Shown here: in pieces, positions 8,440-35,528 of the stretch
Layout of the letters: each line of letters starts with the position of its first letter
Position numbering within the stretch: the first letter of the stretch is position 1
Assembly: GCA_035550055.1 (NCBI GenBank)
Contig: DASZRO010000036.1
Location: forward strand, 1-49,014
Direction of reading: 5' to 3'
From: Mycobacteriales bacterium
GTDB lineage: Bacteria > Actinomycetota > Actinomycetes > JAFAQI01
Length of the DNA: 49,014 nucleotides
Notes under the pieces: model-generated
Told to the model about the DNA's origin: nothing
Database searches by the model: none
What the model saw: the letters and a program-made list of their open reading frames with translations, nothing else
Position numbers and translations under genes: made by a program

Positions 8440-10342
<1,903 letters not shown>

Positions 10343-32396: not shown

Positions 32397-33020
32397 CTAG
32401 GCCCGGCTCAGCATCTGCAGGCAGGAACGCAGCAGAGCGGAGATGTTGGGGGCGTCGCCCACCGCGATCGCCGCCTCCGCCTCGGGACCCACCGCCACCA
32501 GCGCGTCGTCGACCTCACGCCCCGACCAGCCGAGGCCGGTCAGCGCGTCGCGCAGCTGGTCGCGCCAGGCGCCCGGGTTCTGCCCCGGCAGCCGGACCAC
32601 GGTCGCCCCGCCACCGCTCGGCGCGCCGAGCTTGTCCTTCAGCTCGAGCACCAGGCGCTGCGCGCCCTTGCGGCCCACGCCGGAGACCAAGGTCAGCGCT
32701 CCGACGTCGTCGGTGGCGACGGCGGCGCGAACCGCGTCGGGGCTCAGCACGGCAAGCACCGCCTGGGCGAGCTTCGGTCCGACCCCGGTGACGCCTTGCA
32801 ACGTCTCGAACACCGACCGCTCGTCGTCGGTGGCGAAGCCGAACAGGGTCAGCGAGTCCTCTCGCACGACCAGGCTGGTCGCCAGCCGCACGTGCTCCCC
32901 CACCCGCAGCGTCGCGAGCGTCGCCGGCGTGCACTGCACCGCCACCCCGATGCCGCCGACCTCGACGACGGCGCCGTCAGCGCTGACCAGCGCCACGACC
33001 CCGCTGATCGTGGCGATCAT
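32397..33020 (-). CDS. ruvA: Holliday junction DNA helicase RuvA
   Basis: A 207-residue protein that binds four-way junctions and loads RuvB. It has an OB-fold N-terminal domain ([12 protein letters not shown]), two helix-hairpin-helix motifs ([35 protein letters not shown]) and the C-terminal RuvB-binding domain. The ATG at 33020 matches the family N-terminus and overlaps the ruvC stop by four bases; the frame continues to 33125 as a shadow of ruvC. Confidence 0.95.
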
Positions 33021-33583
33021 CGGGCGGCCGCCGCGGCCACGCGGGTGCGCTGTGCGTGCTGTGCTTGCTGTGCGTGCGTCGTTTGCTGCGCCTGCGCCAG
33101 CCGCGCCATCGCCGCTCCTCGCCACACGTGGCAGATCGCCAGCGCGAGCGCGTCGGCGGTGTCCGCCGGCTTCGGCGCCCCAGCGAGGTTCAGGATGCGG
33201 GCCACCATGTGGCCGACCTGCGCTTTCTCGGCACGTCCGGAGCCGGTGATCGCGGCCTTGACCTCACTCGGCGTGTGCATCGCCACCGGGACTCCGGCCC
33301 GGGCCGCTGCGGTGATCGCCATTGCGGCCGCCTGCGCCGTACCCATGACGGTCCGGACGTTGTGCTGGCTGAACACCCGCTCGACGGCGACGACATCGGG
33401 GCGGTGGCGCTCGATCCAGTCCGCGATCTGGCGGTCGATCGCGAGCAGCCGGTGCGCGACGTCGTCGGTCGGCGGGGTCTGTACGACGTCGTAGGCCACC
33501 GCGTCGAGCGAACGACCTGGGGCGCCGTCGACCACGCCCAGCCCGCACCGGGTCAGCCCCGGATCAACGCCCAGCACCCGCAC
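33017..33583 (-). CDS. ruvC: Crossover junction endodeoxyribonuclease RuvC
   Basis: A 188-residue nuclease that resolves Holliday junctions. Acidic active-site residues appear in [10 protein letters not shown], in VVAVERVF and in [11 protein letters not shown], and the DNA-contact part [17 protein letters not shown] is intact. I chose the GTG at 33583: the only ATG option (33607) lies inside the LexA-type box, so it would put the operator in the coding region. A low-complexity Gln/Ala/His tail of about 28 residues is encoded by three 9-bp repeats (33049-33075) and is not part of the conserved fold. Confidence 0.93.
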
Positions 33584-33593
33584 CGCTCGCCCC

Positions 33594-33621
33594 GTTCTTC
33601 CGAACATACGTTCGGAAGAAC
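33594..33621 (-). promoter_or_regulatory. LexA-type SOS box upstream of ruvC
   Basis: The core GAAC-ATAC-GTTC (33602-33613) matches the actinobacterial LexA operator GAAC-N4-GTTC, and the symmetry extends to 12-bp arms (GTTCTTCCGAAC and complement) around the 4-base centre. It ends 11 bases before the ruvC start. A -10-like TATGTT (33603-33608) lies inside it, so bound LexA would block the promoter. Mycobacterial ruvC carries a comparable box. This predicts DNA-damage induction of ruvCAB. Confidence 0.85.
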
Positions 33622-33671
33622 ATTAACGGTGACCGGCCCGCGGACGACGCAGCGACGCGCCCAAACCCAAC

Positions 33672-33715
33672 TGTGAGCTGCGCGGTACCTCCGGCGGTAT
33701 CCACCGGCTCACGGA
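33672..33715 (+). repeat. Palindromic direct repeat, copy 1
   Basis: A 44-bp sequence identical at 43 positions to copy 2 (34731-34774); the difference is T33679 against C34738. It contains outer arms GTGAGCTG / CGGCTCAC (8 bp in copy 2, one G.T pair here) and an inner imperfect stem GGTACC / GGTATCC. It lies between the SOS box of ruvC and the plus-strand AbiEi-like gene. The nine bases CCCAACTGT at its left edge also occur close to copy 2, 13 bases further away, inside the 3' end of that gene. Confidence 0.9.
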
Positions 33716-33759
33716 CTGAGCAACTTCCGCACCAAGCGTCGACGCCCCGCTCGACGCTC

Positions 33760-33785
33760 ACTGCTGACTGCTGACTGCTGACTGC
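33760..33785 (+). repeat. Heptanucleotide tandem repeat
   Basis: The unit ACTGCTG is repeated 3.7 times just 12-37 bases upstream of the predicted start of the AbiEi-like gene. It may lie in its promoter or leader, where changes in copy number would alter spacing. Confidence 0.85.
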
Positions 33786-33796
33786 ATCTTGCACCG

Positions 33797-34735
33797 ATGA
33801 TCGACCGACCCGAAGCCCTTGGGCTTGACCGCGGCGGCGCCACAAGTCTGGACCAGTGCCTGGCTGCGGGCCTGAGCAAGCGACAGGTTCATCGTCTGGT
33901 GGCGAGCGGCCGGTGGCAGTCACCCTTCCCGCGGGTCTATGTCACGTTCAGCGGGCCGCTCCCGGCCGAGACAGTTCACCACGCCGCATTGCTCTACGCA
34001 GGAGCGAGCAGCGTGCTCAGCCACGAGTCCGCCGGCGCTTTGTGGCGACTCTGTCGAACTCCGCCCGAAGTCCATCTGCTCGTTCCCTACCCCCGCCAGG
34101 TCGACGAGCAGGTCGGACTCACCCTGCACCGATCCCGCACCCTGGTCGCTGACGAGATCCATCCGTGCCTGTCGCCGCGGCGCACCACGATCGAAAGAAC
34201 CGTGCTCGACCTGCTGGCCGGAAGGAACAGTGCCGACGCCGCACTTGGCCTGATCGGCGACGCCGTTCGTACTCGTACGACGACTGCGTTCCGATTGCGG
34301 AGCGCAGTGCTGGCGAAGCCTCGTACCCGATGGCGCCCGCTGATCTTGGACGCGCTGCCAGACATTGCCGCCGGCGCGCAGTCACCGCTCGAGCTCCGAG
34401 ACGCAGCCATCCGACGCCGCCACGGTCTGCCGGCGGGTCGCCGGCAGGTTCGTCGCTGCGGAAGCCACGTCGAGTATCTCGACGTCGTGATCGAGGAGTT
34501 CGGCCTGCACATCGAGCTCGACGGACGCCTCGGCCACGACCGAACCCGCGAACGATGGCGGGACATGCGCCGCGACAACCGAAGCGAGATCGCCGGGCTC
34601 CGACACCTTCGCTACGGCTGGGCAGACGTCGTTGATCGTCCCTGTCAGGTGGCGGCCGAGCAGGCGGAGGTTCTGCGTCAGCAGGGATGGACGGGCGTCC
34701 TGCGGCCCTGTCCCAACTGTCGTGGACCTTTGTGA
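33797..34735 (+). CDS. AbiEi-like winged-helix protein with DUF559/Vsr-type nuclease-fold domain
   Basis: A 312-residue protein. Residues about 15-75 match the AbiEi-type antitoxin winged helix (SKRQVHRLVASGRWQSPFPRVY) followed by the linked region (SVLSHESAGALW, RRTTIERTVLDLL). The C-terminal part (about 195-300) resembles DUF559, a PD-(D/E)xK nuclease-like fold: E in SPLELR, D in YLDVVI, E-D in IELDGR, then LRYGWADV. So it looks like a DNA-binding domain fused to a nuclease-like domain; neither activity is shown. It is divergent from ruvC, separates ruvC from yebC, which are usually adjacent, and is bracketed by two copies of a 44-bp palindromic repeat. Its stop codon TGA lies inside copy 2. 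No clear ribosome-binding site. No partner toxin gene is adjacent. Confidence 0.85.
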   Translation: MIDRPEALGLDRGGATSLDQCLAAGLSKRQVHRLVASGRWQSPFPRVYVTFSGPLPAETVHHAALLYAGASSVLSHESAGALWRLCRTPPEVHLLVPYPRQVDEQVGLTLHRSRTLVADEIHPCLSPRRTTIERTVLDLLAGRNSADAALGLIGDAVRTRTTTAFRLRSAVLAKPRTRWRPLILDALPDIAAGAQSPLELRDAAIRRRHGLPAGRRQVRRCGSHVEYLDVVIEEFGLHIELDGRLGHDRTRERWRDMRRDNRSEIAGLRHLRYGWADVVDRPCQVAAEQAEVLRQQGWTGVLRPCPNCRGPL

Positions 34736-34774
34736 GCCGCGCGGTACCTCCGGCGGTATCCACCGGCTCACGGA
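34731..34774 (-). repeat. Palindromic direct repeat, copy 2
   Basis: Second copy of the 44-bp repeat at 33672-33715. Here the outer arms pair perfectly (GTGAGCCG / CGGCTCAC). It begins at the stop codon of the plus-strand AbiEi-like gene and ends four bases before the minus-strand yebC stop, so it can act as a shared, bidirectional terminator hairpin. No T-run is present. Confidence 0.9.
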
Positions 34775-34778
34775 TCGG

Positions 34779-35528
34779 CTAGACGGACTCGAGGACCTCG
34801 TCGCTGACGTCGAAGTTGGCCCAGACGTTCTGGACGTCGTCGCAGTCCTCGAGCGCCTCGACGAGGCGCAGCACCTTGCGGCCGTTCTCGTCGTCGAGGG
34901 GCACCGAGACCGACGGCAGGAAGGCGGTGTCGGCAGACTCGACGGGGATGTTGGCCGCCTCGAGCGCGGCGCGTACGGCGGGGTTGTCGGTGGCCTCGGA
35001 GATCACCTCGAACTCCTCGCCGAGGTCGTTGACCTCCTCGGCGCCGGCGTCGAGCACCGCGCCGAGGACGTCGTCCTCGGACAGCCCGTCAGCCTTGGCG
35101 ACCAGCACGACACCCTTGCGGTTGAACAGGTACGCGACGCTGCCGGGGTCGGCCAGCGACCCGCCGTTGCGCGAGAGCGCGGTCCTGACCTCGGACGCGG
35201 CGCGGTTGCGGTTGTCCGTGAGGCACTCGACGAGAAGGGCGACGCCACCCGGGCCGTAGCCCTCGTAGGTGATCGCCTCCCAGTCGGCGCCGCCGGCGTC
35301 CACGCCGGATCCGCGGCGCACCGCGCGGTCGATGTTGTCGTTGGGGACGGAGTTGCCCTTGGCTTTCGCAATCGCGTCGGCCAGCGTCGGGTTGCCGGCC
35401 GGGTCGCCGCCTCCGGTACGAGCCGCGACCTCGATGTTCTTGATCAGCTTGGCGAACAGCTTGCCGCGCCGGGCGTCGACGACGGCCTTCTTGTGCTTGG
35501 TCGTCGCCCACTTCGAGTGGCCGCTCAC
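34779..35528 (-). CDS. YebC/PmpR-family protein (TACO1-like)
   Basis: A 249-residue protein starting [16 protein letters not shown], the universal YebC N-terminus, with [25 protein letters not shown] near the end in pieces. The family has been described as transcription regulator and, for TACO1-type members, as helper of translation; RuvC neighbourhood is common but its meaning is unclear. ATG start. Its stop is followed by the palindromic repeat; its start overlaps the pdxT stop by four bases. Confidence 0.95.

Follow-up and report, generated by a model that had tools for sequence, protein, structure and literature searches.

The closest described systems in organization are the REP/TnpA-REP (RAYT) REPtrons and REPINs, in which short palindromes are dispersed between genes, a nuclease-type gene lies beside cognate palindromes, protein and palindrome co-diverge and the gene is mostly inherited vertically (PMC8266576, PMC3116915). 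Two groups of proteins are also relevant by fold. The AbiEi antitoxins, of the type IV toxin-antitoxin kind, include S. agalactiae AbiEi and Rv2827c of M. tuberculosis, each of which binds its own promoter at inverted repeats (PMC7319586), and Vsr-like DUF559 proteins share the catalytic set E, D, (D/H), H, D (PMC12907096). The open-access literature yielded no description of the element reported here, nor of a DUF559 gene with a palindrome, an AbiEi-DUF559 fusion or a RAYT in Actinobacteria, and the element seems to belong to a kind of selfish repeat system that has yet to be described. Our main reading, held with about even confidence and built on sequence comparison, is that it represents an actinobacterial selfish REP-like element run by an AbiEi-guided EDxHD nuclease.

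The window (the whole stretch of DNA that was analysed, 49,014 nucleotides) is the entire contig C36 of a 3.5-Mb genome in 122 contigs, and the nearest relatives found for this genome are MAGs labelled Frankiaceae/Frankiales. An earlier note on this DNA had described a gene between yebC and ruvC, bracketed by near-identical 44-bp palindromic repeats. Both the neighbours and the repeats were confirmed (Table 1): the direct repeats at 33672-33715 and 34731-34774 are identical at 43 of 44 positions, both are imperfect palindromes, and their natural frame, as set by homologous sequences, is 46 nt. The second copy does not start at the stop codon as had been proposed; the TGA (34733-34735) lies within it, so that copy 2 overlaps the stop. 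A nine-base match, CCCAACTGT, is indeed present at 33666-33674 and 34712-34720, but its interpretation as the left-over 3' end of a lost gene copy found no support, since its first part is ordinary ruvC-side flank (GACGCGCCCAA, also found in the sister genome G001) and its last part is palindrome. The hairpin of the window palindrome is weak (z about -2.3). A separate palindrome, GTTCTTCCGAACATACGTTCGGAAGAAC, lies at 33596-33623 just before ruvC, with CGAACNNNNGTTCG-like forms in many relatives, and looks like a LexA/SOS box of the ruv operon.

Table 1. Coordinates of the element and its neighbouring genes in the window.
Feature	Position	Strand	Remarks
Left palindrome (46-nt frame)	33670..33715	.	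Between divergent ruvC and gene; same frame as family palindromes TTTGTGAA...TTCACAAA
Degenerate DnaA-box-like motif GTATCCACC	33697..33705	+	Inside right arm of left palindrome; weak match
AbiEi/Vsr-EDxHD nuclease gene, 312 aa	33797..34735	+	AbiEi antitoxin fold and nuclease domain
Right palindrome (46-nt frame)	34729..34774	.	Supplies the gene's stop codon TGA
ruvC, host gene left of site	33017..33607	-	
yebC, host gene right of site	34779..35528	-	

The AlphaFold2 model of the window protein (mean pLDDT 94.6) predicts a whole two-domain AbiEi antitoxin fold for residues about 1-192 (6y8q, Z 11.5 over 183 residues; 1zel, Z 9.4) and, for residues about 194-298, a domain that matches NGO0050 (Z 12.4), the EDxHD homing endonuclease I-Bth0305I (Z 11.4) and Vsr (Z 10.4). 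By sequence, the AbiEi and DUF559 assignments fall under the Pfam cut-offs, yet the fusion read earlier from the sequence is upheld by structure for both parts and by PADLOC models (E 2e-18) that cover the AbiEi part only. A profile search of PDB sequences gave nothing significant, NCBIfam contained no model matching the window protein, and no transposase family was matched in Pfam, PADLOC or NCBIfam, TnsA appearing only as a nuclease-fold match (Z 7). Among 48 diverse family proteins, E199, D229, E240, G243, H247 and D256 are invariant and D242 is conserved in at least 90%; the conserved residues match the Vsr-like DUF559 set by their order in the sequence rather than by superposition (PMC12907096). 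The protein is a predicted PD-(D/E)XK-like Vsr-type nuclease with E, D, H and D as catalytic residues. Codon comparison of six pairs (dN/dS 0.10-0.38, dS being saturated in distant pairs) indicates purifying selection. Unlike AbiEi antitoxins, with which it shares the two-domain fold, the protein has a fused nuclease and its gene a palindrome at each end; the window element contains no second gene, and no AbiEii (DUF1814) nucleotidyltransferase toxin gene is adjacent, the flanks being ruvC and yebC. It resembles I-Bth0305I and the Vsr/DUF559 nucleases in residues 194-298 (Z 10-12) and in the retained E, D, H and D, and differs from them in its AbiEi DNA-binding part and palindromic ends; its gene does not lie in an intron, and no methyltransferase partner was seen.

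AbiEi/DUF559-type fusion genes are common in Actinobacteria, with a protein match in 43 of 60 sampled relatives' genomes and often several per genome, and we found no described role for them in the open-access literature. Close homologues elsewhere have palindrome pairs of their own, with one member ahead of the gene and the other at the stop codon; the two members resemble each other, and the pairs differ from locus to locus. When the upstream flank was aligned locally with the downstream flank at 51 actinobacterial loci, about two thirds scored 20-115; mismatched flank pairs averaged 13.7, with 23 as their 99th percentile. An unbiased palindrome scan of 403 kb (score >=14) found 1.18 per kb at -350 to -50 and 2.08 per kb at -60 to +100 around the stop, compared with 0-0.046 per kb elsewhere and zero in shuffled sequence. 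At the 51 loci, strong palindromes are concentrated in just two places, shortly before the gene and at its stop codon, where they are no less than 25 times as dense as in the DNA around them. Most loci were drawn by one protein-family query and their flanks then examined, so they are no random sample of DUF559 genes, and because they share descent the counts are not independent events. In 28 Gordonia loci, which overlap partly with the 51 as some genomes are common to both, 22 left and 21 right palindromes were found at a laxer threshold (background 0.087 per kb). The idea that the two palindromes keep a constant orientation to each other, as they do in hairpin-guided IS200-type elements, was tested and dropped, since the direct comparison was better at some loci and the inverted one at others; set beside the terminal inverted repeats of a classical insertion sequence, the ends here are palindromes, alike in the direct or the inverted sense. 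At two loci (L044, L098) the palindrome occurs in tandem copies at one or both element ends.

A second shared feature precedes the gene. At 39 of 51 loci TCCACA (the TTGTCCACAG motif) stands no more than 200 bp from the start, on the same strand as the gene, where shuffles expect 3.65; it is on the opposite strand at two loci and in about 3% of control windows. Most relatives have TTGTCCACAG, mostly 8-46 nt after the left palindrome, and in the window clade a degenerate form of the motif is part of the left palindrome itself. The consensus TT(G/A)TCCACAG contains TTGTCCACA, the DnaA box that has high affinity in Mycobacterium tuberculosis and Streptomyces (PMC4285127). Such a strand-specific DnaA-box-like motif would tie the element to replication.

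Palindromes of the same type also occur on their own. The earlier note had proposed looking for the repeat elsewhere; no third copy of the exact window palindrome exists in the 3.5-Mb genome at up to three mismatches, but other copies of the repeat type and of the gene family were found. The pattern TTTGTGAA-N(24-42)-TTCACAAA leaves the gap free, yet it returned only 46-nt palindromes: 12 in G001, three others of this related type in the window genome, two in G003 and none in ten other relatives. Thirteen of the 15 fetched loci had no family gene nearby, although several end at contig ends, and they share no flank except for one duplicated locus in G001. The arms co-vary strongly, with both bases changed in 14 of 22 pairs and 85.6% of cells paired, against 35-40% when the arms are slid. 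In Gordonia the corresponding pattern, GCCGTAGATC-N-GATCTACGGC, has a length of 39 nt in nearly every case and was found in 10 of 59 genomes, with 11 of 15 loci solo. It was present in 9 of 29 gene-positive and 1 of 30 gene-negative genomes (gene at E <= 1e-50; one-sided Fisher p about 0.005, calculated by hand and uncorrected for shared ancestry), and the sole gene-negative genome is G372. Fixed-length solo palindromes of both types are almost confined to gene-carrying genomes. Copy numbers are low, 1-12 per genome, and are lower bounds because the patterns are strict. The solo palindrome on G000:C94 was absent at the corresponding places in G001 and G003, and that on G001:C42 in G000, G002 and G005, with flanks too divergent for exact junctions. 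Two other searches were set aside: the gapped pattern GTGAGCC...GGCTCAC found only unrelated palindromes outside the window genome, and a loose three-mismatch pattern was noise (76 matches, 97 for the reversed control).

The solo copies bear on an alternative in which nothing moves and the palindromes are operators, the AbiEi part controlling its own gene and, through the solo copies, a small regulon. The left palindrome is indeed placed before the gene's start, the N-terminal part folds like AbiEi, and because AbiEi autoregulators such as those of S. agalactiae and M. tuberculosis (Rv2827c) bind inverted repeats (PMC7319586), part of the palindrome pattern could be regulatory. As a full account we nevertheless consider it unlikely: many loci repeat the whole palindrome at the stop codon, both bases are swapped in the co-varying pairs, unlike in a fixed operator, the nuclease domain keeps its conserved catalytic residues, and the assignable solo copies (nine convergent, eight tandem and one divergent, by a simple codon-bias gene call) are placed as for intergenic repeats, unlike operators.

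The sites at which the element occurs are variably filled. At yebC-ruvC, the genes of the window genome and its congener G001 are closely related (75% identical over the aligned part). The G001 copy (L035 near 2995; G001:C220:13494) is frameshifted near codon 72, through assembly error or decay. G003 has at this site a 29%-identical family member with its own palindrome pair. In the tree, whose yebC-ruvC rows for G004, G006, G007 and G011 stem from wrong reading frames and are disregarded, this gene falls in a different supported clade from the window gene, despite four genes elsewhere in G003 that are 55-58% like the window gene; the site was therefore most likely filled independently. It is empty in G002, G005, G008 and G012. 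In other families (L059 and L065 of G020 and G044; L074 of G019) the gap holds about 0.9-1.0 kb of other sequence that does not match this gene, which may mean that insertions here are generally tolerated.

A further site lies in Gordonia, beside a gene that we take, from reading its sequence, to be fumarase. The element is present there in five species and missing from many, and has been vertically inherited for long periods. In G372 the flanks are 96-97% identical to those of G. polyisoprenivorans, the gene is absent and exactly one palindrome is kept; no family gene was found anywhere in G372 at E <= 1e-50. The single palindrome is as expected for a scar of loss between two repeats, and it could stem from ordinary recombination between them. 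An empty site with a single repeat, which the earlier note had named as support for insertion if seen at yebC-ruvC, was found in Gordonia instead; the other empty sites inspected at both places had no recognisable palindrome, their junctions are inexact, and no target-site duplication was recognised. Near murI a second recurrent site is occupied in several actinobacterial families and in both orientations (L086, L090, L093, L097, L044, L115). Nocardioides carbamazepini and N. daeguensis (L110, L118) have related genes at the same site in opposite orientation, for which either inversion of the element between its palindromes or two separate insertions may account. Gordonia otitidis and G. aichiensis (L102, L103) share the same element and left flank (97%), and the right flank diverges shortly after the right palindrome, which suggests a rearrangement breakpoint near the element's end. 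No near-identical element pair was found at two places in one genome; recent transposition was therefore not caught in the act.

Recurrent sites, filled or empty, would also suit a homing-endonuclease-like gene, whose protein cuts a chromosomal site that homing repair then fills, the palindromes being by-products or protected ends, and the catalytic domain is closest to NGO0050, I-Bth0305I and Vsr. Such genes interrupt their target, normally without a full palindrome copy at each end, and neither solo palindromes nor matched ends are predicted; we rate this somewhat below the operator reading. Improbable is a reading in which the palindromes around a defence or toxin-antitoxin gene are just ordinary terminators, active in both directions, or insulators, whose likeness is maintained by gene conversion: the right copy does lie between convergent genes and palindromes overlap stop codons, but the scan of the window-element region found no terminator-like or T-tailed site, the left copy in the window lies between divergent genes, both copies match locus-specifically and solo copies are tied to gene-positive genomes. 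Of the earlier gene-plus-terminator cassette, the patchily present unit and its loss (leaving one palindrome in G372) stand; the terminator part found no support, and neither did a link to ruvC and the Holliday-junction operon, since the gene family occupies many unrelated sites. Each of these alternatives explains single features, but not the matched ends, solo copies and scar together.

The selfish REP-like element that we favour would be ordered palindrome, (DnaA-box-like motif), AbiEi/EDxHD-nuclease gene, palindrome, with stand-alone palindromes in the same genomes. Comparison across genomes shows that the palindromes are paired and their arms co-vary, that the element is patchily present and most likely filled one site more than once independently, that palindromes also stand alone, that one remains as a scar and that the protein is under purifying selection; from these we infer that the element moves. 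Recognition of the lineage-specific palindrome most likely falls to the AbiEi winged helix, and the nuclease domain, of the Vsr/homing-endonuclease type, would nick or cut there, perhaps at times when the palindrome forms an extruded hairpin close to a replication fork. Repair could then copy the gene with its ends, or a lone palindrome, into new intergenic sites, or alternatively remove the gene and leave one palindrome behind; the protein, rather than host recombination, would be the mover of the DNA.

Like a REPtron, the element combines a gene with adjacent cognate palindromes, intergenic and 20-50 nt in length, of which further copies lie at other places in the genome; protein and palindrome co-diverge, and the gene is mostly vertical. 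A REPtron enzyme has the HUH/Y1 fold; the element differs in its AbiEi plus Vsr/EDxHD fold, in the several genes that a genome holds, every one of them accompanied by a palindrome of its own, in the DnaA-box-like motif and in its few solo copies, and it occurs in Actinobacteria. It works like a REPtron but is none, because its enzyme has another fold (TnpA-REP: PMC8266576). By inspection, no constant GTAG, the commonest form of the conserved tetranucleotide before REPtron palindromes, precedes the 46-nt palindromes. More tentatively, it may be a second, independently evolved REP-like system, in which an AbiEi-guided EDxHD nuclease disperses both its gene and lone palindromes within actinobacterial genomes, and in which a DnaA box between the left palindrome and the gene provides the coupling to replication. 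If the fusion genes are cores of palindrome-bounded selfish elements, this would explain the many divergent copies per genome and the patchy sites, give genomes a second route to dispersed palindromes and offer many natural protein-palindrome pairs for reading out DNA recognition.

Viral contigs gave neither exact palindrome nor alignment matches, and a search of PLSDB plasmids found no member of the gene family. A 36%-identical relative lies at 8497-9384 of MT835975.1, an unannotated 14-kb phage-labelled faecal contig.
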